A stretch of 36,243 bases of DNA, taken from positions 1 to 36,243 of IMG/VR virus record IMGVR_UViG_3300045051_000064. The stretch is one strand, 5' to 3'. The position numbers were made by a program, and so were the translations under genes. Source of the DNA: a virus. Positions 2,933 to 19,600 of the stretch are shown here, piece by piece. Below the pieces are notes generated by a model. It was not told the origin of the DNA. It made no database searches and worked only from the letters and a program-made list of their open reading frames with translations. Numbering within the stretch: position 1 is the first letter of the stretch; every line of letters begins with the position of its first letter.

Positions 2933-3757
2933 ATGAGCTTAAGTATTACTATCAGCAACATCGACAATTTGACCGATACCGAGCGAGCGGTACTGCGCTT
3001 GATTGTCGGAGATGAACAGGTCACATTGAGCGGACCGACGGCGACGCAGCGGTATTTGGAAGGTTTGGCCTGCACGGGTGATGGTTGTGGCGATACGTTG
3101 CCTCCGTTATCCGCTGAGGCATCTGACCGCATTTATGCCACCGAGGGATTTATTGCTCCAGCTCCACCCATCCCAGCCTCCGCCGAACTCGACTCTGCTG
3201 GCCTGCCGTGGGACAAGCGCATTCACTCGTCCAGCCGCGCCAAAGTTGCAGATGGCACATGGCGCAAGATGCGCGGCGTGAACGACGCACTGGTGGCGAC
3301 GGTCGAGGCGGAGTTGCGCGCGGTGCAGGCGATACCAGTGCCGGTACCTCAGACGCACGGCTCGCCCGAGCTTGACGCCGATGCGGTAAAGCTGGAAGCG
3401 ATGGCCGGTGCTGGCGCGGCTGGGCCGACGCTGGCTGCCGTATTCGGCGCATATACCGAGGCAAACAATATGGAGAACTATGTGCCGCTTCCAGCGCCCG
3501 TTCCAGCGCCCGTTCCAGCGCCCGTTCCAGCGCCCACGCTTGCCGAAATGCAGGCCAAACTGGACGCAGTAGACGTGCCCCTCACATTTGCCGACTTGAT
3601 GAAGTACGTCACGCCGATGCTGGTGGCGGGAAAATTGCCGCAGGATAAGTTGCTGGCGATCACTGCTGAGTTTGGCCTGCCACACCTGGCCGCACTTGGT
3701 GCGCGCCCCGACCTGGTCGAAGCGGTGAAGGCACGGATTGACGAGGTGTGCAAATGA
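2933..3757 (+). CDS. Hypothetical early protein with Pro-Ala-Val linker
   Basis: A 274-residue protein I do not recognise. The start chosen is the ATG at 2933, with GGAGG eight bases upstream. An in-frame ATG at 2879 falls inside the promoter -10 region and cannot be used by that transcript. The N-terminal part is acidic, the middle has a basic patch (DKRIHSSSRAKVADGTWRKMRG), and a linker of three repeated APVP units near residues 187-200 leads to a helical C-terminal domain. Modular architecture with a flexible linker suggests a partner-binding or DNA-binding adaptor, but this is inference. It is first in the plus-strand operon and overlaps the next gene by ATGA, so it is expressed with the replication genes. 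Confidence 0.8.
   Translation: MSLSITISNIDNLTDTERAVLRLIVGDEQVTLSGPTATQRYLEGLACTGDGCGDTLPPLSAEASDRIYATEGFIAPAPPIPASAELDSAGLPWDKRIHSSSRAKVADGTWRKMRGVNDALVATVEAELRAVQAIPVPVPQTHGSPELDADAVKLEAMAGAGAAGPTLAAVFGAYTEANNMENYVPLPAPVPAPVPAPVPAPTLAEMQAKLDAVDVPLTFADLMKYVTPMLVAGKLPQDKLLAITAEFGLPHLAALGARPDLVEAVKARIDEVCK
3488..3535 (+). repeat. Tandem 12-bp repeat encoding APVP
   Basis: Near-perfect tandem copies of a 12-base unit (ccagcgcccgtt) encode the Pro-Ala-Val linker of the gene above. Copy number may vary by slippage without breaking the frame. Confidence 0.75.
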
Positions 3758-3951: not shown

Positions 3952-5063
3952 GTGACCACGCTCCCTTCGCCCCGTCCGGCCTTTCCCGCGTCGTTGCCTG
4001 CCCGGGGTCGTACAACCTGATCCGCGCGGCGCGAGCCGCAGGTCTGACTCTGGATGAGGACGATACCGATGCGTCACGCGAAGGCACGGCAGCGCATGAA
4101 GTGGCCCAACGGCTCGTTCAAGACGGCTGGTACATGGAGGTTGGGTCGCTCACCAGCAATGGCGTAGCGGTGACCGAAGAGATGGTCGAAGGCGCGCAAC
4201 TCTATGCCGAAGCCGTCGCCCCGTATCTGGCGGGAGCGCGCATTGAGCAACACATTGAGTGCCTTGTCATACACCGTGACTGTCACGGTACACCAGACCT
4301 ATCAAGCGGCCCGACTGACGGCACGCTATTTGTGGCCGACTACAAATTTGGTCACAGGTACGTGTCACCTGTGATGAATTGGCAACTGATCGCCTACGCC
4401 ATTGGCTCAATGCCGAGTTACTTGCCAACCGTGAGCGTCATCCTACAAATCATTCAACCCCGCTCGTATCACCGAGACGGGCCGGTGCGCGAGTGGATTA
4501 TTGATGGCAACCAACTGCGGGATTATGCACAGGTGTTATCCACGGCTTGTCACGCAGCCGAGCAACCTGACGCACAATGCGCAACCGGCCCGCAGTGCTA
4601 CAAGTGCCCAGCACGTCACGTCTGCGAATCCGCGTTGCACATGGAGCAATCCGCGCTGTACCTGTCAGGCAGCACCGTCCCTCTCTATGCGTCTGTCGAA
4701 GCCAAGGCGGTGCGTTTACGCCAGATACGCCGTGCAGCCGATCACCTCAAGCAAATGGAGTCCGGTATCACCGAGGATTTGATCGCAGCGGCGCGTCGAG
4801 GTGTTAATGTGCCAGGATTCACACTCAAGGCGGGGGCTGGACGCGAGAAATGGGTCGCCGAGGTGTCAGAGGTCATTACACTTGGCGCAGCATTGGGTGT
4901 CGATCTGAGCAAACCAGGATGTATCACGCCAAACCAAGCACGTAAAGCCGGATTGTCGTCTGATATCGTAGCGGCATGCTCCGAGCGTTCGTCTGGTGAG
5001 GTCAATCTGGTCGAGGACGATGGAAGCGTGGCGCGTCGGATATTTGGTGGAGGTGGAGCATGA
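3948..5063 (+). CDS. DUF2800-family PD-(D/E)XK nuclease (Cas4/RecB-like)
   Basis: A 371-residue protein matching the DUF2800 phage family, thought to be RecB/Cas4-like nucleases. Visible features are C18 in ACPGS, the helix EGTAAHE (46-51), the metal ligand D117 in GTPD, and D131-Y-K133 as the (D/E)XK pair. A Cys cluster follows (C211, C217, C220, C226), probably binding an Fe-S cluster together with C18 as in Cas4. It would process DNA ends or recombination intermediates during replication. DUF2800 and DUF2815 genes are commonly neighbours in phage replication modules, which fits the ssDNA-binding gene 570 bases downstream. Both ends are joined to neighbours by ATGA overlaps. Nuclease activity is inferred from motifs. 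Confidence 0.88.
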   Translation: MSDHAPFAPSGLSRVVACPGSYNLIRAARAAGLTLDEDDTDASREGTAAHEVAQRLVQDGWYMEVGSLTSNGVAVTEEMVEGAQLYAEAVAPYLAGARIEQHIECLVIHRDCHGTPDLSSGPTDGTLFVADYKFGHRYVSPVMNWQLIAYAIGSMPSYLPTVSVILQIIQPRSYHRDGPVREWIIDGNQLRDYAQVLSTACHAAEQPDAQCATGPQCYKCPARHVCESALHMEQSALYLSGSTVPLYASVEAKAVRLRQIRRAADHLKQMESGITEDLIAAARRGVNVPGFTLKAGAGREKWVAEVSEVITLGAALGVDLSKPGCITPNQARKAGLSSDIVAACSERSSGEVNLVEDDGSVARRIFGGGGA

Positions 5064-5254
5064 ATAAGGTGTGCCCAATACGTCTCGTGTCAGTCGCCAT
5101 AATGTCACAAGCAATAACATCTGCGGCACTGGTATATCCTAAAAATGCGGACGAACTCGTAAAACTTATCGATACGTCCGACCGCAATTGCAGTACCCAC
5201 AATTGCGCCATGTGGAACAAACGCCGCAAATGCTGCGGCTTAATAACCGCTTGA
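5060..5254 (+). CDS. Small Cys-containing hypothetical protein
   Basis: A 64-residue reading frame coupled to the DUF2800 gene by ATGA. It has a short hydrophobic N-terminus and a Cys-rich end (C44, C49, C58, C59). Its stop codon lies inside the next promoter, at the TTGACA box. I do not recognise it. Support is translational coupling and correct placement; no conserved motif is seen. Confidence 0.5.
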   Translation: MNKVCPIRLVSVAIMSQAITSAALVYPKNADELVKLIDTSDRNCSTHNCAMWNKRRKCCGLITA

Positions 5255-5279
5255 CACGACCGTCAATTTGCGTTACTGT
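5251..5279 (+). promoter_or_regulatory. Promoter with third TTGAC-N6-GTCAA operator
   Basis: TTGACA (5251-5256), 17 bases, TACTGT (5274-5279). The inverted repeat TTGACACGACCGTCAA (5251-5266) has the same half-sites and spacing as those at 424-439 and 2854-2869. It would drive the coiled-coil gene and the ssDNA-binding-protein gene as a separate unit, sensitive to the same regulator. Confidence 0.7.
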
Positions 5280-5313
5280 AGCACCTGCAACATACCCACA
5301 ACTTACAAAGGAG
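5278..5313 (+). repeat. 36-bp direct repeat, copy 1 (leader with ribosome site)
   Basis: A 36-base sequence ending in the Shine-Dalgarno AAAGGAG is repeated exactly at 5588-5623. This copy begins at the end of the -10 box and forms the 5' untranslated leader of the coiled-coil gene. Confidence 0.95.
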
Positions 5314-5321
5314 ACACACAA

Positions 5322-5591
5322 ATGGCAAAAACTCCGGCACTTTCGACACAGTTGAAAACGGCCAACCTCAAAATCGCCGAACTCGAAAAGCAATTGATGT
5401 CCGCGAGGCAAACCAGCGAGTACAACGCAAAGCAGAGCAAGGACGCGTCCGAGATGCTCGAACAAGTGCATCAAGTGCTCGATGCTGTACCGGGGAGTAT
5501 CGCTCGTGAGAGCGAAGGTGAAAATTCGTGGGATCGCGTCAAACGTAGTCCTGTAACACGGCTTGCCGCTTGGCTCGCCATCCGTCCGTAG
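5322..5591 (+). CDS. Small coiled-coil protein
   Basis: An 89-residue protein starting at the ATG at 5322, behind AAAGGAG. Residues ~10-60 are helical with heptad-like Leu/Ile spacing (LKTANLKIAELEKQL), a probable coiled coil, followed by a basic tail. No family recognised. It lies between two copies of a 36-bp leader, and its TAG stop is supplied by the second copy, so the gene and a leader look like one arm of a duplication or insertion. It is probably co-expressed with the ssDNA-binding protein and may act with it; that is inference. Confidence 0.75.
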   Translation: MAKTPALSTQLKTANLKIAELEKQLMSARQTSEYNAKQSKDASEMLEQVHQVLDAVPGSIARESEGENSWDRVKRSPVTRLAAWLAIRP

Positions 5592-5623
5592 CACCTGCAA
5601 CATACCCACAACTTACAAAGGAG
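5588..5623 (+). repeat. 36-bp direct repeat, copy 2 (leader with ribosome site)
   Basis: Exact second copy of 5278-5313, 310 bases downstream. It supplies the stop codon of the coiled-coil gene and the ribosome site of the ssDNA-binding-protein gene, but lacks the promoter seen before copy 1. Confidence 0.95.
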
Positions 5624-5631
5624 CTTTAATT

Positions 5632-6435
5632 ATGCCTGATATTTTATTTCCAGCCGGACGCATGGTCGGCGGCAGTCTCGACAAACTGTTCCCCGTCATG
5701 GACGATCACACCAAGCAACAGAAGATCGGCAAAGACGGCCAGCCGATGTTCGACTGTTCTTTCGCGTTCGCCATTCCGAAGGGTGGCGAGACACACTGGT
5801 CGCAAACCCCGTGGGGCAAGGTCATCTACGAAACCGGCGCAGCGGCCCACCCGACCTCCGTGACCTCGCCATCGTTCTCGTGGAAAGTCATCGACGGCGA
5901 CAGCACAGTGGTCAACAAAGCAGGCAAGCGCCCCTGCGACAAGGCAGGCCATCCCGGCCACTGGGTCATCTGGTTCTCGCAAGGCTGGTTGCCCAAGCGC
6001 GTCAATGCCACAGGTGAGGTCGAATTGCCGGACGGCGCAATCGTCCCCGGCTACTACATCCAAGTGTTTGGCAGCGTGGCGGGCAACAAACTCGTCCCGA
6101 ATGGAACGCCTGGAGTGTACCTCAACCCCATCGCTGTCGCGCTGGTGGGCGAAGGTGAACGTATCGCAACGGATGTTGACACGACCAAGATCGGCTTCGG
6201 CGGTGCGGCATTGCCCGCTGGCGCAAAACCTGTGACTGCAGCGGCTCCGCAGTTCGCAGCCCCAACGCCGACACCGACACATGCGGCTCCAGCTCCCATC
6301 GTGCCCAATCCCGCCATCCTCAACGTGCCAGTGCCACGTCAAATGACTGCGAAGGCGTCAGGCGCACCGTATGAAGCATTTGTCGCACAGGGTTGGACGG
6401 ACGACATGCTGCGTCAACAAGGCTATATGGTGTGA
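5632..6435 (+). CDS. ssDNA-binding protein, DUF2815 / Enc34 type
   Basis: A 267-residue protein of the DUF2815 family, whose characterised member is the Enc34 phage ssDNA-binding protein with an OB-like fold. Supporting features are the aromatic and basic N-terminal core (FPAGRMVGGSLDKLFP, WGKVIYE, GHWVIWFSQG) and the typical GYYIQVFG...GVYLNP region near residues 143-165. A Pro/Ala-rich tail (~205-245) follows, ending in YEAFVAQGWTDDMLRQQGYM, an end motif common in phage ssDNA-binding proteins. The start is the ATG at 5632 behind AAAGGAG in the repeated leader; an upstream in-frame ATG at 5563 lies inside the previous gene. It would coat ssDNA during replication with the family-B polymerase and helicase. 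Confidence 0.87.
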   Translation: MPDILFPAGRMVGGSLDKLFPVMDDHTKQQKIGKDGQPMFDCSFAFAIPKGGETHWSQTPWGKVIYETGAAAHPTSVTSPSFSWKVIDGDSTVVNKAGKRPCDKAGHPGHWVIWFSQGWLPKRVNATGEVELPDGAIVPGYYIQVFGSVAGNKLVPNGTPGVYLNPIAVALVGEGERIATDVDTTKIGFGGAALPAGAKPVTAAAPQFAAPTPTPTHAAPAPIVPNPAILNVPVPRQMTAKASGAPYEAFVAQGWTDDMLRQQGYMV

Positions 6436-6437
6436 GC

Positions 6438-6495
6438 CTAGCACGCTAGGCGCGTGCTGTAACTCAAGCGGCCCGGCTTACACAGTGGGCCGCTT
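6438..6495 (+). terminator. Hairpins after the ssDNA-binding gene, terminator-like without U-tract
   Basis: Two hairpins follow the stop: CCTAGC-AC-GCTAGG (6438-6451) and a perfect 9-bp stem (6466-6474 with 6487-6495, 12-base loop). No T-run follows, so intrinsic termination may be partial. mRNA processing or protection is equally possible. Confidence 0.5.
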
Positions 6496-6518
6496 CGGTG
6501 ACAACGTGAGGGGATGAT

Positions 6519-7004
6519 ATGAATGTAACTTTAGAAAAACTGATCGAGATGAAGCAAGAGGTGGCACCTCTTGGAAAACGCGCTATTTGGACGATGTCAA
6601 AAGAAGCGTTCTCACACATCAGTCATTTGAAGGACGCTGACCATCATTATGTGTGTACCGCACGCTATGAGGGCGACCCAAATCCACCACATCTTCTCGG
6701 ATTGCCGGTAGATGTGTCGCACACCTACACGGGGATAAACATTATCCCGCTTTCGGGTCCGGTTCAGGACGCCGATATTCTTGCGATCCGAGATTCGAGT
6801 TCTGACCCCGTGAATCATCCAAAGCACTACACGTCACATCCGAGCGGCATTGAGTGTATCCGGGTCACGGAACACATGGGTTTCAATCTCGGAAATGCGG
6901 TCAAATATATCTGGCGTGCGGACCTAAAACAAGACGCCATCGAAGATTTGCGCAAGGCGAAATGGTATATCGAGCGCGAGTTGACGAAGCGTGGTGCGCA
7001 GTGA
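6519..7004 (+). CDS. DUF3310-domain protein
   Basis: A 161-residue protein with two parts. The C-terminal ~65 residues (DPVNHPKHYTSHPSGIECI...NAVKYIWRADLKQDAIEDLRKAKWYIERE) match the DUF3310 family of phage proteins, sometimes annotated as nucleotide-kinase-like without firm evidence. The N-terminal ~95 residues are not recognised. The ATG at 6519 has GAGGGG upstream. It opens a new run of overlapping small genes leading to the DNA polymerase. The next gene starts with GTG overlapping this stop (GTGA). A role in nucleotide metabolism during replication is a guess from context. Confidence 0.85.
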   Translation: MNVTLEKLIEMKQEVAPLGKRAIWTMSKEAFSHISHLKDADHHYVCTARYEGDPNPPHLLGLPVDVSHTYTGINIIPLSGPVQDADILAIRDSSSDPVNHPKHYTSHPSGIECIRVTEHMGFNLGNAVKYIWRADLKQDAIEDLRKAKWYIERELTKRGAQ

Positions 7005-7363
7005 CCATCCAATGCCGCTGTATCAACAGGATTAACGGGCGAGTATGTTTCGCCCGTAAGAGCTTGGCCAAGCTGCCGGCGTTGTACGCAGCGCCCCGCT
7101 ACATGCCACGCTGTCCGTCGTGTGGAGCGCGCAAGTGGATGGTTGACAAGCATCGAATACTCAAGGAATTGCCGAATCAGATCAAATGCTGGTGTACTGG
7201 CTATCCGGTGTTATCAGCAAGAGGCGTGCCGCATCGCAAGGGAAGCAAATATTGTGAACATCACCCGCACGGGTATTATAACCAAGCAAAAAGAGAAGGA
7301 GTACATGATGACGATATCCCGTTGGAACATATTGGCCGGCGAGTCGATGCGTGTCCGTTCTAA
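7001..7363 (+). CDS. Putative zinc-binding protein
   Basis: A 120-residue basic protein starting with the GTG at 7001, which overlaps the DUF3310 stop as GTGA. It has Cys/His groups typical of zinc ribbons: C5 and C7, CPSC near residues 35-38, CWC near 58-60, and a final CEHH. The first half (CRCINRINGRVCFARKSLAKLPALY) is Arg/Lys rich. Probably a small nucleic-acid-binding phage protein; no named family assigned. A longer frame with an upstream ATG at 6854 would lie inside the DUF3310 gene and is unlikely. Confidence 0.72.
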   Translation: MTIQCRCINRINGRVCFARKSLAKLPALYAAPRYMPRCPSCGARKWMVDKHRILKELPNQIKCWCTGYPVLSARGVPHRKGSKYCEHHPHGYYNQAKREGVHDDDIPLEHIGRRVDACPF

Positions 7364-7514
7364 TCACGCAATGAGTGCGTTTGAACAGGCCGATTTACAA
7401 AAACAACACGCCAACATGCTCGCCGCTTTGACACTCATCAGCGAAAGCGACAAATGCCCGGCGATACTCGCACAGGTTGCGATCAACGCAATCAACGGGG
7501 TGAAAATTGGGTAA
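7305..7514 (+). CDS. Small hypothetical protein
   Basis: A 69-residue protein whose start (ATG at 7305, with a second ATG at 7308) sits 5-8 bases after GAAGGAG, within the end of the zinc-binding gene. Mostly helical (FEQADLQKQHANMLAALTLISES), with no Cys cluster or membrane segment. No family recognised. The good ribosome site and gene order support it. Confidence 0.65.
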   Translation: MMTISRWNILAGESMRVRSNHAMSAFEQADLQKQHANMLAALTLISESDKCPAILAQVAINAINGVKIG

Positions 7515-7518
7515 GATT

Positions 7519-7698
7519 ATGATTGTCGGCGGCAACCGCAATGGCGAATATATCAAATGGTTCGGCAACCGTGTGCTCATAGACGGCGTGCATCATGTGC
7601 TGCATAGAGTTCATTTGTCCAATACCACAATGGGCGAGTATTACGTCAAAGAGGGTGTGCCTCCAGGTGAAATCGTGCGGATCGAGGTGTGCGGATGA
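7519..7698 (+). CDS. Small hypothetical protein
   Basis: A 59-residue protein, MIVGGNRNGEYIKWFGNRVL..., rich in beta-type residues. The ATG at 7519 is preferred; an in-frame TTG at 7507 is possible. Its stop overlaps the polymerase start as ATGA, so translation of the polymerase may depend on it. Function unknown. Confidence 0.65.
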   Translation: MIVGGNRNGEYIKWFGNRVLIDGVHHVLHRVHLSNTTMGEYYVKEGVPPGEIVRIEVCG

Positions 7699-9674
7699 GC
7701 CGTCTAATCTGTGAAGCGTGCGATCACGGTTACGATCCAGACGCAATGGAGTGCCCGTGGTGCGGTGCATCGGCACAACTGGCACACGTCTCACACTCCA
7801 TCAGCGTGTTCGATACCGAATGCTATCCGAATTATTGGCTGTGCAAATTTGACACTGGTGAAGTGTTCCAACTGACACCGGGCGGTACGCTCGATATTGC
7901 CGGTCTGCGTCGCGCATTGAGTCAGTACACAATAGTCAGCTTCAACGGTATTAGCTACGACATACCTATTGTGAGCCTCGCGCTGCAAGGTCACGACAAC
8001 GCTACGCTCAAGGCTGCATCCGATGCTATCATTGTTGGTGGCAAGCGTGCGTGGGAGATAACCCGTGACCTGTTGGAATGGTGCGATCATATCGACATGA
8101 TCGAGGTCGCGCCAGGACAGGCAAGTCTCAAGATGTACGGCGCAAAGATGCATTCTCGCAAGCTGCAAGACTTGCCGTTCGATCCGAATCTACCGTTGGC
8201 ATGGTGGCAGATAGTATTGTTGCGCGATTACTGTGACAACGATCTGCACACCACCCGCGAGTTGTACGACACGTTTCAAGCGCAACTCGATCTGCGCAAA
8301 AATATGAGTGCCGAATACGGTGTTGATCTGCGCAGTAAATCAGACGCGCAGATTGCCGAAGCTGTGATGAAGCAGACATTGCCGTTCAAAGTCGAACGTC
8401 CATATATTTCACCCGGCACGCAGTTCAAATATCAGCCGCCAGAATGGTTGCATTTCCAGCACTTGCAACTTCTGCAACTGCTCGACCGCAACGCTTTCAC
8501 CGTGTCCATGTCTGGCGGCGTTGATATGCCGGACGAATTGGCGAACACACTTATCCGCATCGGAAGCAGCGCATACAAAATGGGCATCGGCGGGCTGCAT
8601 AGCACCGAGTCGCAAATTGTGCATCTGGCCGACAATCAATACGAACTGACGGATTTTGACGTTGCGAGCTACTATCCATCGTTGATCTTGCGCACCGGTA
8701 TCGCGCCGCAGCAAATCGGGCCGCAATTCCAGAACATTTACCGGCAGTGGTATGATCGCCGACTTGCTGCAAAACGTAGCGGCGATAAAAAAACCGCCAA
8801 CAGTCTCAAGACGCTTCTTAATGGCACGTTCGGAAAGCTCGGTAGCATGTGGTCGATATTTTACGCACCGACTGAAATGATACAAGTCACCGTAACCGGG
8901 CAGCTTGCTTTGCTCATGCTGATCGAGATGTTGGAGCTGCATAGTATTCAGGTGGTAAGTGCCAACACGGACGGTATCGTGCTACGCACACGGCGCGATA
9001 TGGCATGGCTGCGCGACCAGTGTGTTGCGTGGTGGGAGTCGGTCACACGGTTTGAGACTGAGCGTACTGATTACACAATGCTTGCCAGTCGTGATGTGAA
9101 CAGTTTTATCGCAGTCAAACCGGACGGTACGGTAAAACTCAAAGGCGCATTTGCCCCACCGGAGCCGGGCGCGTCCGGCTGGCCCAATCCAACCGGCCAA
9201 GTGTGCGTCGATGCGGTCGTAGCATATTTGGCCAATGGCGTGCCATTACGTGACACCGTGTACGCGTGCCAGGATGTGCGGCAGTTTGTCTATGTGCGAC
9301 AAGTCAAAGGTGGTGGATCGTATTTGGCATCCGCCGTGCCGCCGAAATCGACCACACTCACGATGATGCGGACATTCTGTGGCATCGAAGGGCTTACCAG
9401 CGATGAAGTTCGCGCCATCTATGCCACCACCCGTGACCAAGCGTTATCCCAGGCTCGATACTTGGGCAAGGCAGTGCGCTGGTACTATTCGGCAGGCTCG
9501 ACAGGTTGCATAATCACACCAGCTGGCGGACTGGTTGCACGAACGGAGGGTTGCGTTCCGCTTATGGATCTGACAGACAGCGTGCCGGACGACATTGACC
9601 GCGAATGGTATGTGCGTGAAGCTCGATCCCTGTTGATTGATTTGGGTATTGACATCGCCGTCAATAATCTGTAG
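7695..9674 (+). CDS. Family-B DNA polymerase with 3'-5' exonuclease
   Basis: A 659-residue replicative polymerase. An N-terminal zinc ribbon (C6, C9, C20, C23) precedes the exonuclease motifs: D40-T-E42 (Exo I), N84...D89 (Exo II) and Y179-C-D-N-D183 (Exo III). The polymerase motifs are A DFDVASYYPS (320-329), B KTLLNGTFG (372-380) and C ANTDG (423-427). Motif C has Asn where most B polymerases have the first Asp of DTD, but the second, catalytic Asp426 is kept. Motifs A and B are only ~45 residues apart, so the TPR2 insertion of protein-primed enzymes is absent. It copies the phage genome with helicase and ssDNA-binding protein. The start at 7695 overlaps the previous stop. Comparable modules often carry a family-A enzyme instead. 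Confidence 0.9.
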   Translation: MSRLICEACDHGYDPDAMECPWCGASAQLAHVSHSISVFDTECYPNYWLCKFDTGEVFQLTPGGTLDIAGLRRALSQYTIVSFNGISYDIPIVSLALQGHDNATLKAASDAIIVGGKRAWEITRDLLEWCDHIDMIEVAPGQASLKMYGAKMHSRKLQDLPFDPNLPLAWWQIVLLRDYCDNDLHTTRELYDTFQAQLDLRKNMSAEYGVDLRSKSDAQIAEAVMKQTLPFKVERPYISPGTQFKYQPPEWLHFQHLQLLQLLDRNAFTVSMSGGVDMPDELANTLIRIGSSAYKMGIGGLHSTESQIVHLADNQYELTDFDVASYYPSLILRTGIAPQQIGPQFQNIYRQWYDRRLAAKRSGDKKTANSLKTLLNGTFGKLGSMWSIFYAPTEMIQVTVTGQLALLMLIEMLELHSIQVVSANTDGIVLRTRRDMAWLRDQCVAWWESVTRFETERTDYTMLASRDVNSFIAVKPDGTVKLKGAFAPPEPGASGWPNPTGQVCVDAVVAYLANGVPLRDTVYACQDVRQFVYVRQVKGGGSYLASAVPPKSTTLTMMRTFCGIEGLTSDEVRAIYATTRDQALSQARYLGKAVRWYYSAGSTGCIITPAGGLVARTEGCVPLMDLTDSVPDDIDREWYVREARSLLIDLGIDIAVNNL

Positions 9675-9724
9675 GATTTGGCGCAGGGGTGAATATGAAA
9701 AGTGAAACTCGGCGCGATACTGGC

Positions 9725-9789
9725 GGCTAACGAACAGAAATAACCGGCTCCGCGCTTTTGCGGAGTCCGGGTTGATTGACGGGTTAGGC
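9725..9789 (+). other. Integron attC-like site 1
   Basis: A 65-base imperfect palindrome opening with GGCTAAC (9725-9731) and ending with GTTAGGC (9783-9789), the pattern of integron R'' (RYYYAAC, one mismatch here) and R' (GTTRRRY) boxes. Inside are unpaired spacers of 10 and 9 bases, an AACCGG / CCGGGTT arm, and a CTCCGC / GCGGAG stem closed by CTTTT-rich loop bases. Two bases, T and G, are extra on the right arm only, like attC extrahelical bases. It lies just after the polymerase and a possible 11-codon frame (9695-9730) whose TAA is inside the R'' box. No integron integrase is visible. Confidence 0.6.
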
Positions 9790-9856
9790 CCCGTCTTAAC
9801 TACGGAGATAAAAATGCCAAAAGCAAAAATCCCGGCAAACGCAAAGGAGAATGAAG

Positions 9857-10264
9857 ATGCAACACGCACGCAGCGATTACAACGTAATTCAGGACACCAC
9901 GGCGGCCCGCAAGCTGGCAGAGCTTGTACTGGACATGCAGATGGCGACCGACAAGGGATTGGTGGCTCGACGACTCGCCCGCGAAGTGCTCGGCATTACC
10001 GATGCCGGCCGCGCTCCCGCGATGAACCCGATTACCACCAATGGCACGACTCGCTTGATTCCCGACGATGAGCCGGTATTCCTGCTGCGCGGCCAAGATC
10101 AGCACGCCTCGAAAACCGTGTGCTTCTGGGCCTCGGCAGTCGAAGCGGCGGGCGGAGACCCGGAGATTGTGAGGGTTGCGAGAGCGCATGCCGTGAAGAT
10201 GCTCGACTGGCCGAAGAAGAAGCAACCGGACTTGCCGGCTAACGCCAACATAACCGGCGGCTGA
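9857..10264 (+). CDS. Small phage protein bracketed by attC-like sites
   Basis: A 135-residue protein. The ATG at 9857 is 7 bases from AAAGGAG; the in-frame ATG at 9851 is too close. The C-terminal half (EPVFLLRGQDQHASKTVCFWASAVEAAGGDPEIVRVARAHAVKM then WPKKKQPDLPA) matches a phage and plasmid family I know only as hypothetical. The last ~9 codons run into the attC-like site, so the natural end was probably near DLPA. An alternative frame starting at 9814 behind ACGGAG overlaps it and may be only a short translated leader. With an attC-like site on both sides, the unit 9784-10288 has the layout of a single gene cassette. Confidence 0.75.
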   Translation: MQHARSDYNVIQDTTAARKLAELVLDMQMATDKGLVARRLAREVLGITDAGRAPAMNPITTNGTTRLIPDDEPVFLLRGQDQHASKTVCFWASAVEAAGGDPEIVRVARAHAVKMLDWPKKKQPDLPANANITGG

Positions 10265-10294
10265 AAGCCGTCCGCGTTGATGTAAAAGTTAGGC
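10237..10294 (+). other. Integron attC-like site 2
   Basis: A 58-base imperfect palindrome with the architecture of site 1: GGCTAAC (10237-10243), 8-base spacer, AAC-CGG arm, CGGCT / AGCCG stem with GAA loop, one extra T and one extra C on the right arm, GTT, 9-base spacer, GTTAGGC (10288-10294). The loop and spacers differ from site 1 while the boxes and bulges are kept, which is how attC sites vary. Confidence 0.6.
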
Positions 10295-10323
10295 TGGTTT
10301 TGTCAATAACGAAGAGGTGAGTT

Positions 10324-10650
10324 ATGACTGATGAAATTATTATCGGCAAGTGCAAGTGTGGCGGATATGGACAGGTATTTAATGCTGAAACTGAGCATGA
10401 AATGGGTCGCTGCCACGATAGTTTGCCAGTTGTGAAGGAGCGATCTAAATGCTATTCACTAATATCAAAACAACAGCTTCAAATTGAAGATTTGCTCAAT
10501 GAAGTGTCTGATTTTAAAGATAGCATATCGAAAGTGCGACTGCTCTTGGTATGCATCGGCGGACCTCTTAACGATAACAAGCTCGGATACTCTAAAGAAC
10601 AGCGTGCGGTTTTTTCTAAAATTTTAGACATACTAGGTGACGATGCCTAA
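10324..10650 (+). CDS. Hypothetical protein, possible second cassette gene
   Basis: A 108-residue protein starting at the ATG at 10324 behind GAGGTGAG. The N-terminus has a small Cys motif (CKCGG, later C), followed by a helical, coiled-coil-like middle (SKQQLQIEDLLNEVSDFKDSI). Not recognised. The gene is clearly richer in A/T than the replication genes, and its TAA stop lies inside GCCTAAC, an R''-type box, as is common for cassette genes. It directly follows attC-like site 2, so it may be a captured cassette. Confidence 0.7.
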   Translation: MTDEIIIGKCKCGGYGQVFNAETEHEMGRCHDSLPVVKERSKCYSLISKQQLQIEDLLNEVSDFKDSISKVRLLLVCIGGPLNDNKLGYSKEQRAVFSKILDILGDDA

Positions 10651-10683
10651 CGAGGTATAGACACCTCCAAAGGTGCATAATCC
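10645..10683 (+). other. Possible degenerate third attC-like site
   Basis: GCCTAAC (10645-10651) fits RYYYAAC and is followed by a CACCT-CCAA-AGGTG hairpin, but no GTTRRRY box closes it. Either a truncated site or chance. Confidence 0.25.
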
Positions 10684-10704
10684 AGAAAACACACAGGAGA
10701 TATT

Positions 10705-10959
10705 ATGAACAAATGCTCACCTCAACAGATGTTAAAAGTGATCGCACGGAACGCGGAAGCCCCAGTGCATTTGCCGGAGACGCGATTGATTTTAGCCATA
10801 TTCGGAACTGCAATAAGTGATCTGTTAGATCCGGATCATCGCAGAAGCGCGAGGCGATTTTTTGCCAACGGACTTTTTCATATATACTGCGACTTGATCG
10901 GTTTGAATCCGAGCACCACTCGACAATTATTAGTTACCGGTGGATTTTTACGCGTATGA
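10705..10959 (+). CDS. Small phage protein, conserved ARRFF motif type
   Basis: An 84-residue protein with the ATG at 10705 seven bases after CAGGAGA. The core DPDHRRSARRFFANGLFHIYCDLIGLNPSTTRQLL resembles a widespread small phage family (acidic DP, then ARRFF, then a helix-turn-helix-like C-terminus). These are usually annotated as hypothetical and sit near replication or regulatory genes. DNA binding is plausible from the short C-terminal helices but not shown. Confidence 0.75.
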   Translation: MNKCSPQQMLKVIARNAEAPVHLPETRLILAIFGTAISDLLDPDHRRSARRFFANGLFHIYCDLIGLNPSTTRQLLVTGGFLRV

Positions 10960-11036
10960 TTAAAAACTACATTTATCTGCGAATGCGTAACGTGCGGCAC
11001 GGTGTTGCATTTCGAACGGCTACCGGTCGATTGTGA
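10956..11036 (+). CDS. Possible 26-residue peptide
   Basis: A frame of 26 codons whose ATG overlaps the previous stop as ATGA, encoding a basic peptide (MIKNYIYLRMRNVRHG...). Support is coupling only. Could be a non-functional read-on at the end of the operon. Confidence 0.3.
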   Translation: MIKNYIYLRMRNVRHGVAFRTATGRL

Positions 11037-11048
11037 AAGACCGATGTG

Positions 11049-11300
11049 ATGCGTGCCATATTCCTGTTCGCAGCATTGCTTTATAGTCAGGATGCCACCA
11101 CGGAAAAGCATGTGACGCGATTAGGTAGTTACCTGCCGGAGTTTATTGGGGCACCGTGCAGCTTGGCAAGCGATTATGAAGATGGGAAATGTGTTCTGGT
11201 CACAGTCAGATCGCGACCCAAGATCGTCAAGGCCATTACCACTTCCACCCTACACCGACACCGACAAACCAAGCGCCATCACTATCGATCGAGGCGTTAA
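11049..11300 (+). CDS. Possible small secreted protein at the operon end
   Basis: An 83-residue frame from the ATG at 11049. The N-terminus (MRAIFLFAALLYSQD) resembles a short signal peptide. The last ~65 bases run antisense into the end of the lysis gene, and the tail there (RHRQTKRHHYRSRR) is unlikely to be selected protein sequence. The ribosome site is weak. Kept as a possible truncated gene; no terminator is visible between the converging operons. Confidence 0.35.
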   Translation: MRAIFLFAALLYSQDATTEKHVTRLGSYLPEFIGAPCSLASDYEDGKCVLVTVRSRPKIVKAITTSTLHRHRQTKRHHYRSRR

Positions 11301-11766
11301 TGCCGGCATGGAACGACTTGATCTGCAGTACATCCTCGCGCAGTGAGAGCCGGACAACCCGTAACCCACTCCAAGATTTGATGCCGTAATCGACCCGTAG
11401 CTCGCCGGTCTGTTCGACCGCGAGCCATGGATGCGGTTCGCTTCGATATAAGGTCTGCACTTCGCCGGTCTGCGCGTCAATCACTGTTGTGACGGTCTGC
11501 GGGTGGGTGTCTTTGGGCAGGCGGGCGGAGGTCAGGACGTATTTGTTCGGGTCGTCCTTGATCTCGTCCGGCAGTTTCAGTTTGCGCTTTGCCGGCGCGG
11601 TGTAGACCGGCACCTTGGGCGGCGTGATGTCCACCCTCGGAACATCGCTCAGGCGCTTGTCCGGCTCGGCCGGGTGCCAGCTATCCACTGGCTGAGGGGT
11701 TGGCTTGAATAACCACAACACCAGCCCGGCGACCAGCACCATAACGATGATGGCGAGCTTATTCAT
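11236..11766 (-). CDS. Membrane-anchored periplasmic protein of the lysis cassette
   Basis: A 176-residue protein with one N-terminal membrane segment (MNKLAIIVMVLVAGLVLWLF), then a Pro-rich stretch and a soluble domain with VTTVIDAQTGEVQTLYRSEPHPWLA. I recognise this pattern from phage proteins near lysis genes that are called hypothetical. The ATG at 11766 overlaps the holin stop by eight bases. Its position fits a spanin-like role, but it lacks the long coiled coil of Rz proteins, so function is open. It ends the lysis cassette, converging with the early operon. Confidence 0.72.
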   Translation of the reverse strand: MNKLAIIVMVLVAGLVLWLFKPTPQPVDSWHPAEPDKRLSDVPRVDITPPKVPVYTAPAKRKLKLPDEIKDDPNKYVLTSARLPKDTHPQTVTTVIDAQTGEVQTLYRSEPHPWLAVEQTGELRVDYGIKSWSGLRVVRLSLREDVLQIKSFHAGINASIDSDGAWFVGVGVGWKW

Positions 11767-12103
11767 TCCCGCCCTTGTTGATCTGCGAGTCGAACAGATA
11801 ACCGGTGCCGAAGGCCATGATGGCGACGGCGATACTGGGACCATGCAATTTGCCGAGCATCAGCATAGACCAAACCAGTTCAGGATTGATGAAGTCGGCG
11901 GTGCCAGTCGTCGCCGCAGTCCAGCTCACGCCGAGTAGGGCTATACCAGTCACGCCGGATCTGCTCGGATGATCGGCAATCAGATAGTCCAGCAACGTGC
12001 CAAAATGGCGACCGTCCTTGCATACCTTGCGGTAGTGCCAATACGCACCAAGTGTGGACATGATGAGAAATGCGATAAATGATGCGATGCTGATCGATTC
12101 CAT
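11759..12103 (-). CDS. Putative holin
   Basis: A 114-residue membrane protein with about three hydrophobic segments (near residues 5-22, 50-66 and 90-105) and a short charged end (SQINKGGNE). It follows the endolysin by two bases; GGAGGAG at the end of the endolysin gene is its ribosome site. Size, topology and place match phage holins that open the inner membrane for the endolysin. The family is usually annotated as hypothetical or holin-like, so the call rests partly on context. Confidence 0.7.
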   Translation of the reverse strand: MESISIASFIAFLIMSTLGAYWHYRKVCKDGRHFGTLLDYLIADHPSRSGVTGIALLGVSWTAATTGTADFINPELVWSMLMLGKLHGPSIAVAIMAFGTGYLFDSQINKGGNE

Positions 12104-16087: not shown

Positions 16088-16680
16088 GGTGTGGCAATAT
16101 CCAAAAGTTTAATAGCGAAGGTCACTGTGTCGGTGCCCGGTCCATTGTTTGTAAATCGAAGCAACATATTCGTGCTTGCCGGAATCACCCACTCATCTCC
16201 GCCACCTGGAACAGTACCGCCATCCTGCTTACTTCCGATGACGGAATATGTCTCAAGAAACGTTCCGACATCTGTAATGGTCGGGTCTTGATAGATGGCG
16301 CTATATGGCGTCAGCGATTGTTTTCCGAGATGCTTGTTAATCAACGTTTTTTGCGTACCGTTGGCACTGATAGTTGGATTTTTATACAGCGTCAAATATC
16401 CGTTCGCAAGTGCCGAAGTGTAGACAAAATCCTTGATGTGAATCTCACCAGTCGTGCCGTTTTTGATGAGAATATCTTTGTTGGCGCCATTTGTAACGCT
16501 GACTCTATCCGAATGAACCCACGATGCTCCGATATGAATCATATAATGATCCACATCCGTCACGATTATTGAATGGCCGATCGTATCGGATATGACGTTG
16601 CCGAAATCATCACACAAGACGACATTCATCGCCTTGTAGGTAAATTTGTGCCGATCAGTCTCTACTGTCTTTGCAACCAT
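16084..16680 (-). CDS. Hypothetical tail protein
   Basis: A 198-residue beta-rich protein directly after the tape measure gene. The ATG at 16680 overlaps the previous stop (TGATG); a GTG at 16683 is the alternative. The final third (GGTVPGGGDEWVIPASTNMLLRFTNNGPGTDT) resembles a jelly-roll strand pattern. Position after the tape measure suggests a distal tail component, but the family is not recognised. Confidence 0.65.
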   Translation of the reverse strand: MVAKTVETDRHKFTYKAMNVVLCDDFGNVISDTIGHSIIVTDVDHYMIHIGASWVHSDRVSVTNGANKDILIKNGTTGEIHIKDFVYTSALANGYLTLYKNPTISANGTQKTLINKHLGKQSLTPYSAIYQDPTITDVGTFLETYSVIGSKQDGGTVPGGGDEWVIPASTNMLLRFTNNGPGTDTVTFAIKLLDIATP

Positions 16681-19600
16681 CACGCGGTCACTTCTCTAAT
16701 ATCCGGCAGTCCTTCGCCGTTCCAACGATTAATCACCTTATACGTACGCTGCGTGGCGGTGGCAATGGCGACTTGCCCGGCCCGATTGTCGCTACGCAGC
16801 ATCGCAACCTCATCACGTAAAGCGCGTATCTCTGCGGCCACTTCTCCGCCGCCACTCATGGATACCCCGAGCCGACCGTCTGAGCCGCGCTGTAAGGGCA
16901 TAACGGCCTCATCCCCAGCCTCACCCATCACCCCGGCGGAGAACCCGCCTCCGTTGGCGAACATAAACGGCGTGGGGGTGTTAAATATGCCATTGGTGAA
17001 CACACCTCCGTTGGCGAATGCGGGAAGGCTCTCGTAAGTAGCACGCGCTGCGGTCATGTATGCGGCAAGGGGCATTCTTTTTCGGTCGTATGACGGGATA
17101 CCTGCTTCTGGAACCCCCTCTTCCCAACCGATCCCCTGGCTGATAACGTTTAACGCTTTGGCCTTCAATATTTGTCGCGATAGCGATATGTTCGCCGCAG
17201 TCTCGGTCTCCAGAGCCGTTCCAGCAGCCGCCGTAGCCCCGGCAATGGTTGCCGCCCCTGTAGCCCCGGCAATGGTCAACTTTGGCGCTACATTCTGCGC
17301 CGCTGTTACTGTTGCGCGAATATAATCTTGGAGCGTGCTGAATGCGTTAATATTCAGCAAATTTTTCAATGCATTTGTGGTCGCAACGGTGGATGCTGTG
17401 ATCGTGTTAAACGCGTCTGCCACGCTGAGTAAGCGGTTGACTGTTTCATAATTTCCGAGCTTCAATTCCAACGCAACACGATCTGCGAACTGTTTATTTG
17501 TTTCGATTCCAGTGATGCCCAACTCATAAAACGTCCGCCCGACCGAATCAAGAGCCGGTTGCAATTTTTGAGCATCGGTCAGAAAGGTGTTTACAAAAAA
17601 TCCGGCTTTCGAATTGAAGGCGTCTAACCCACCAGCGGCATCGATCAGTCTTTGACGCGCATCCGTTGACGCAATGCCTATCGTACCGAATGCGTCTTGT
17701 TGGGATACACCCAACGCCACGATCAGCGAACTGGTCGAATTGAACAACGTGGTCAGGCGTTGCGCGGTCTGGATGAGGTTCTCACCCTCCTTACGAAATT
17801 GTTGCAATGCTGGAATAAGCGCATCGGCCATGCCTGACGCCAGTGCCGCAATATCGTCTCCCGAAGAATTTAATTCAAATGACCACTTACGCGTCCGAAT
17901 TGACAAGTCGCCAATAGCCGAGCCCAATGTGTCGTACACGGTCTGGAACGACTTTATGGACGTATCCATCATTTTTTGCTGTTGCTGGGTCAACTCCGAA
18001 TATCGAGTCGTGTAAACGGTGCCTCCACCAAATGCGCCACGATTCTCTCCAGATACTTGCGCCATTCTTCCAGCAAATCCACCCCTGGACGCAGTGCCAA
18101 TCATTTGGGGAGCGCGACTACTGCGATCAAACGATCCAAGCAATCCGAGACTTTGCGCCGATTTGAAAACCGTGTACGCCGCGACAGCATACATTGCGCC
18201 AGTTCCAACCGTACCGATGGCCCCACTTGTTCCACTCGCGCCTTGTGCGCCGGTATTCTTCTCAGTAGCCAATGTGTTTGCCACGAGTGCCTTAACCCAA
18301 TCGACCCCGGCGCTGACCACCACCGTCATCTCTTTTTGAATAGGTTTGTCGATGAGTTCTTCACGAATAATATCTCGAACGGATGCAAACATTCCCCGGT
18401 TGTCAGACACACCTTTGACCAGTGCGACCGATATACTTGAGGCGATCCGCTTTGTGTCCTCCGCTTCCGCCTTGGCGACATCATCAACAAATTTTTGATG
18501 GCTGTCGAACGCATCCTGGATACGCTTTTTACGATCTTCGTCAGATTTGACGCGCGCCTTGTCAGCCTCGATGCTGGCCTGCCGCTGATCGAGGCTGATC
18601 GCCACCTCTTGAGCCATGACATAATTCAGCGCCTCCTGCGCTGTTTTCTCATCGCTCTTTAATTTCGTCCACGCAAGTGACACGCGTTCCGAATTGTTCA
18701 GAGATGTGTCGTCAGATTGCACCTTCGCATCCATCTCGGAATAGATGCGCAGCATCGTGGACTCGTGTTGCTTCTTTTCTTTATCACTCAGGTCGGCCAG
18801 CTTGACGGCGTATTTATCAGCGAGTTCAATCTGCACCTTACTCGAAGCGTTCTGTGCTAACGCGGCATCGACGTTTGCCAGATACAACTTGTCCAATTCG
18901 GCTTTTTCCGCACGATACTTTTCGGATTTGGTCATGTGAAACTTGTTAAACGCATCCGTCGCGCCGCTCCATGTGCTCTCGAGTTTTACTTGATGAGCCG
19001 ATTCCAACGCCTCAATTTTGGCGTCAATGATGCGTTTTTTCTGCAACGCCTCGGACAAATCTTTTTCTGTCCCAAAACCGAAGCCGCGTTCTATCTTTTT
19101 ACGCTGCGCCGCCTGCGCGCGTTCAACCTCCGCCTGTGCGGCGGCTTGTTCTTGTTTCGCAGTCTCCAAACTCATTTCGGCGATCTTTTTGGTGAAAGCA
19201 TCAATGCGAACATTCAGGTTGCCAAAAATGCGATCAATAAACCCGGTCACGTCCGCGAGTTCATAAATGCCGAACAGTATCAATCCGACAATGCCGGCAG
19301 TGCCGACTGTCGATTTGAGCCTGGCGAATAGGCTCATGGAACCCGCAGCCTGCAACTCTGTCGCAGACGCCACGGCGGCAGACGATGCGGCGAGTCGAGC
19401 GTTTGCAGCAGTCAGACCGGTGGTGACTCCGGTCTGCCATGCACGAGCTGCAGCAACATCACGAGCGGCTAATGCGTTGGCCATCTCAGAACGCGCAATA
19501 ACCACATTCATTGCCAACGCCTCACCATGCGCTGCGGTCAGCGCCGATTGCGCCGCGACAGCCTCAAGTGTCGTCATAACAAACTTGGTGGACACGACCG

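Follow-up and report, generated by a model that had tools for sequence, protein, structure and literature searches.

The DNA analyzed here, called the window throughout, makes up a whole virus record in IMG/VR, 36,243 bases long. Families of a phage DNA polymerase, helicase, methyltransferase, exonuclease, terminase, portal and major head protein were matched in it. Immediately of concern is the region downstream of the polymerase gene (7689-9674, + strand; phrog_1252, E=7.5e-172). A hairpin-forming site at 9725-9789 is followed by gene A (9851-10264, + strand, 137 aa), whose stop codon falls within a second site at 10237-10294; then comes gene B (10324-10650, + strand, 108 aa), and its stop TAA is part of a lone third box, GCCTAAC (10645-10651), that closes the array. 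Gene A matched no Pfam or PHROG family and gene B no family either. In a blastn search of deposited phages with the 3 kb locus, similarity was confined to the polymerase.

Two other features of the window may be mentioned. The 36-nt sequence GTAGCACCTGCAACATACCCACAACTTACAAAGGAG is repeated exactly at 5278-5313 and 5588-5623, ahead of two adjacent genes, with a ribosome-binding-like AAGGAG at its 3′ end. At the contig end (1-378), GC-rich 12-nt repeats underlie a minus-strand ORF whose product is a low-complexity AAAWAAAR repeat.

Integrons are bacterial gene-collecting devices, and an earlier note on this DNA had read the two sites as integron attC sites, with boxes GGCTAAC...GTTAGGC, bracketing a gene inside a phage genome. 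The sequence bears out the coordinates and boxes for both sites; no other CTAAC-N36-60-GTTAG pair occurs in the window, where 0.18 would be expected, and the DNA folding of their + strands beats shuffled sequences (z −3.1 and −3.5). We built a covariance model, R1, from 20 bacterial attC sites, namely those of class 1 resistance cassettes (five from annotated plasmids) and sites from mostly betaproteobacterial contigs; its arm pairs covary, as 37 double-change cells were counted where shuffles gave 12. As some R1 members had been recruited by a window-like pattern, which brings circularity, a second model, R2, was built from class 1 resistance-cassette sites alone. Site 1 scored 49.5 bits with R1 (E=1.7e-10) and 29.8 bits with R2 (E=3.5e-6), site 2 41.7 bits (E=1.6e-8) and 39.1 bits (E=7.1e-9), respectively, these E-values being rough by the tool's own statement. 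The next-best R1 match in the window had 12.6 bits; R2 picked both sites and nothing else (next-best E=1.5). Genuine class 1 sites mostly score 39-68 bits with R1, the weakest 20, and both window sites lie inside this range; covariance scores far below those of known attC sites, which the earlier note had named as grounds for giving up the reading, were thus not seen. Among 29 other viral loci (269 kb), whose selection rested on a gene A homologue rather than on a site, R1 found no match above 13.4 bits. An Rfam scan gave no match, nor did a blastn search of deposited phages with the site consensus as query. A palindrome-like short inverted repeat, GCCTAGCAC-GTGCTAGGC at 6436-6451, immediately 3′ of a gene ending at 6435, is a weak match in both models (10 bits, not significant).

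Read on the minus strand, the boxes of both sites are GCCTAAC...GTTAGCC. R″ fits RYYYAAC, R′ departs from GTTRRRY at one position, and six of the seven box pairs form. The right arm of both sites on the + strand runs T-CCGNGTT-G-AT (read by eye), and the extrahelical bases stand on one arm only, at the same positions as those of class 1 sites in the R1 and R2 alignments. Earlier, two extra bases had been counted, a T and another, on the right arm alone; the arm was correct, but the count is three: the T, a variable base and a G located 8 nt after the T. On the evidence of sequence and polarity, of the paired arms and of the extrahelical bases, 9725-9789 and 10237-10294 are integron attC sites; these two are presumed to be active.

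The first reading had missed orientation. Both R1 and R2 place both sites on the minus strand, the attC ‘top’ strand, so that attC polarity is opposite to that of the gene. The extrahelical T and G of the + right arm occur where class 1 bottom strands carry theirs (e.g. L105:5274-5345); thus the + strand is the foldable bottom strand, and both + strand genes are antisense to attC. A typical cassette has its gene in attC polarity and the attC at the gene's 3′ end; here the site comes first, then the gene. IntI cuts attC at G^TTRRRY. With the polarity reversed, the crossover would therefore be at AA^C of the + strand left box: the predicted R′ boxes (minus strand) are the + strand GGCTAAC at 9725-9731, cut between 9730 and 9731, and at 10237-10243, cut between 10242 and 10243. 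The predicted units are cassette 1 (9731-10242, 512 bp), site 1 with gene A, bounded on the strength of polarity and of the left-box boundaries of cassettes shared by relatives; and cassette 2 (10243-10650, 408 bp), site 2 with gene B up to GCCTAA^C of the lone box, placed by polarity and sequence. A unit between the right boxes, 9784-10288, proposed earlier as a single cassette, was rejected on attC polarity and the left-box boundaries of shared segments, and what had been taken for one cassette resolves into two with an array-end box.

A homologue of gene A in the phage contig L005 is 77% identical and also has an attC site just upstream; the alignment begins only just after the site. As the stop codon of gene A (10262-10264) is inside site 2, the last seven codons would come from, and change with, the neighbouring cassette.

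The array ends in an attI-like element (10645-10675, minus strand): the box GTTAGGC (10651-10645), 10 nt, and the inverted repeat CACCT/AGGTG (10662-10675), giving the layout CACCT-TTGG-AGGTG, 10 nt, G^TTAGGC. At the IntI-side junction of four loci (L143, L144, L138 and L139) an inverted repeat is likewise separated by 10 nt from G^TT; attI1 too has an inverted repeat, a short spacer and G^TT, with a spacer of 8 nt versus 10 nt in the window. A search pattern derived from the window, L039 and L075 led to five additional viral stretches, two of which are near-duplicates; attC matches of the same polarity were present in all five. In 24 bacterial genomes no IntI had the motif, in the window's form, next to it, and the five motif-bearing records were without IntI; for this reason 10645-10675 is described as attI-like, and its role as attI is put forward as a presumed one. 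In an isolate-derived virus record, L152, an attC array at 3969-11786 has large ORFs in attC polarity, with the array-end motif at 4865-4893; hence the motif is not strictly phage-type.

Scans with the core pattern yielded 2 and 47 viral stretches and 24 bacterial stretches. R1 matches were present in 48 of the 49 viral records, many as long arrays (for example, 11 sites in the record of L004). The sense of genes between neighbouring sites was judged by Shine-Dalgarno sequence and ORF, and by family matches; orientation of the longest ORF, considered as a measure of gene sense, was discarded as unreliable in GC-rich DNA. The viral inter-site intervals, some of which lack independence owing to near-duplicate contigs, comprised 84 with the gene antisense to attC, 2 sense and 44 unclear; in class 1 arrays the ratio was 3:0 sense. 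Bacterial contigs were mixed (13 sense, 21 antisense), as the core pattern had also recruited phage-type arrays in bacterial assemblies. In an independent test, 54 antisense frames matched 7 Pfam and 47 PHROG families; 54 sense frames matched none. As judged from these frames and intervals, antisense gene orientation is general in viral records with the window's site family; since the loci were recruited by a window-like core, the rule is shown for this site family only.

The families matched in cassettes include N6/N4 and Dam methyltransferases, PAPS reductase, MazG, DHH phosphoesterase and Tad3. Tad3 is a Thoeris inhibitor, i.e. a counter-defence (anti-Thoeris) protein; its gene, at L147:16296-16664, is in an inverted cassette between sites at 16180-16235 and 16691-16757, in a record that has a terminase. 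In another phage contig, a tRNA-like sequence (L003, 3333-3410; recognized by eye) directly adjoins an attC site at 3270-3332.

All-against-all blastn of the loci produced 32 shared segments. Segment starts fell at the left box 14 times versus 3 at the right box; segment ends, 15 times versus 0. L004 and L076 share a 342 bp cassette at 100% identity, and both flanks differ exactly outside AAC...AAC; in L076 this cassette is the one next to IntI. The two loci have a second cassette in common, which neighbours the 342 bp one in L076 and is ∼3.2 kb off in L004. L072, L079 and L080 have different flanks around a 457 bp cassette that is ∼99% identical among them. These alignments show phages with this site family swapping units, each made of a site and the gene downstream of it, that end at the AA^C box. 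A comparison of related phages for gain or loss had been suggested earlier; cassettes were indeed gained and lost in relatives, but none of these cases is a presence or absence at the window's position, and no relatives identified by polymerase were found with such a difference at the window's own locus.

One could argue that the window's sites are relics of a single capture from a host integron, which persist as an immobile spacer between two genes. There are two sites only, no integrase accompanies them, and no identical counterpart of either cassette was found outside the window. On the other hand, boxes, arms and extrahelical bases are kept in both sites, which score like functional ones, and exchange in relatives is recent; we regard the relic explanation as unlikely, though deserving more weight than the alternatives discussed below.

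Which enzyme would move the cassettes? The earlier statement that no integrase is in sight in this phage genome holds: phage genes are present and there was no PF00589 (tyrosine recombinase) match in the 36 kb record. A complete integron has an IntI gene beside attI and an array; with no tyrosine recombinase on its contig and two attC sites 447 bp apart, no integron integrase nearby, the window is by definition a CALIN. As the contig is possibly incomplete, IntI could lie elsewhere in the genome. Full-length IntI was found in three viral records (482, 466 and 398 bits versus the TIGR02249 cut-off of 265), and it adjoins arrays in L143, where a second tyrosine integrase stands beside it, and in L144. 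A deltaproteobacterial assembly holds a tailed-phage-like contig, as seen from translated ORFs (L139/L151; G012 contig 50), with a full IntI, three attC sites with inverted genes and an adjoining GpA-like terminase ORF. In L143, L144 and L139/L151 attC polarity relative to IntI is canonical, and cassette genes run towards IntI.

A recombinase of the phages' own, not IntI, could be imagined instead, one that evolved onto attC-like sites. A PF00589 match is absent from 38 of the 49 array-bearing records, which leaves the enzyme unassigned for most of them, and no IntI gene was seen next to the array-end motif; yet there are viral records, and a phage-like contig, in which IntI does adjoin arrays of this kind, and one of the shared cassettes sits directly at the IntI-side attI-like box. 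A non-IntI enzyme therefore seems to us improbable.

Still less credit is due to the idea that array-bearing viral contigs are misclassified or chimeric bacterial integron contigs. Some are short fragments with none of the hallmark genes tested, and the L152 array, with its ORFs in attC polarity, is beside a prophage; however, the large terminase was detected in at least 17 of the 49 viral records by two families alone, the window's array is inside a contig with terminase, portal, capsid and polymerase genes, and gene polarity is systematically unlike that of bacterial arrays, which makes this explanation very improbable. That the hairpins are intergenic terminators or RNA-processing elements, attC-like by chance, has a next to negligible probability: they are stable and located between genes or at gene ends, and attC sites in general may be weak terminators (Qi et al. 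2023, PMC9892861), but no + strand terminator-like call (a hairpin with a T run, as in intrinsic terminators) was made at either site, the class 1-based R2 selects both sites alone in the window, and cassette-exact exchange in relatives is not expected of terminators.

A chromosomal integron in a Methylotenera contig (IntI, six attC sites and, by inspection of translations, housekeeping-type genes) bears on the host side. It has antisense genes, one of them on a cassette 82-83% identical to cassettes of phages L060 and L004; this likeness implies that the phage and host pools exchange cassettes, or did.

We consider it highly probable that the window derives from a tailed phage carrying, in its replication region, an inverted-gene CALIN of two cassettes, which IntI would move in trans. 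The sites would fold whenever the gene-sense strand becomes single-stranded; IntI from a host chromosomal integron or from a co-resident IntI-bearing phage would then excise or insert cassettes, presumably cutting at the AA^C box of the folded bottom strand. In IntI-bearing relatives, where the IntI/array layout is canonical, phage transcription would enter the array at its far end and proceed towards IntI, so that only inverted genes would be expressed. Behind a host integron promoter the inverted genes would be silent.

One could speculate further, with a chance we put slightly short of even, that phages own a separate pool of backward-gene cassettes, which IntI could move among phages and host integrons, and which would be silent at host promoters and read from phage promoters only. 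If so, host chromosomal integrons would be silent reservoirs of phage counter-defence genes, such as methyltransferases and Tad3. The data indicate that uncultured phages, many of them linked to betaproteobacteria, shuffle small accessory genes, counter-defence genes included, by integron cassette chemistry. Reversed gene polarity offers a simple testable signature that distinguishes phage-type from bacterial cassettes, and phage-type cassettes could explain some of the backward genes in bacterial arrays.

That phages carry integron cassettes, as the earlier note had suggested, is right in so far as attC sites are present in a real phage; it is not new. Qi et al. (2023, PMC9892861) described integrase-less attC clusters in the virulent phages TJE1, PH101 and P12002L and complete integrons in temperate phages, and IntI1 recombined five of the six phage sites that they tested. 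Their phage CALINs resemble the present one in having attC sites and small cassettes in phage genomes, often with no integrase, and methyltransferase cargo. Cassettes of TJE1 and PH101 were described as typically oriented (Qi et al. 2023, PMC9892861); a TJE1 site that we checked runs with its gene, whereas in the window's site family genes are antisense to attC. The literature searched (preprints and most subscription papers were outside the search) contained neither inverted polarity, nor cassette-exact exchange among uncultured phages, nor a host chromosomal integron with phage-type cassettes; within that range these are the new parts.

Class 1 and betaproteobacterial chromosomal integrons share with the phage family the attC boxes, arms, extrahelical bases, lengths and crossover box. 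They differ in that their genes run with attC polarity and away from IntI, while those of the phage family run against it and towards IntI. Bacterial cassettes with reverse-oriented genes likewise have the gene antisense to attC within the cassette; in bacterial arrays such genes are generally exceptions, and in the phage family studied here they are the norm.
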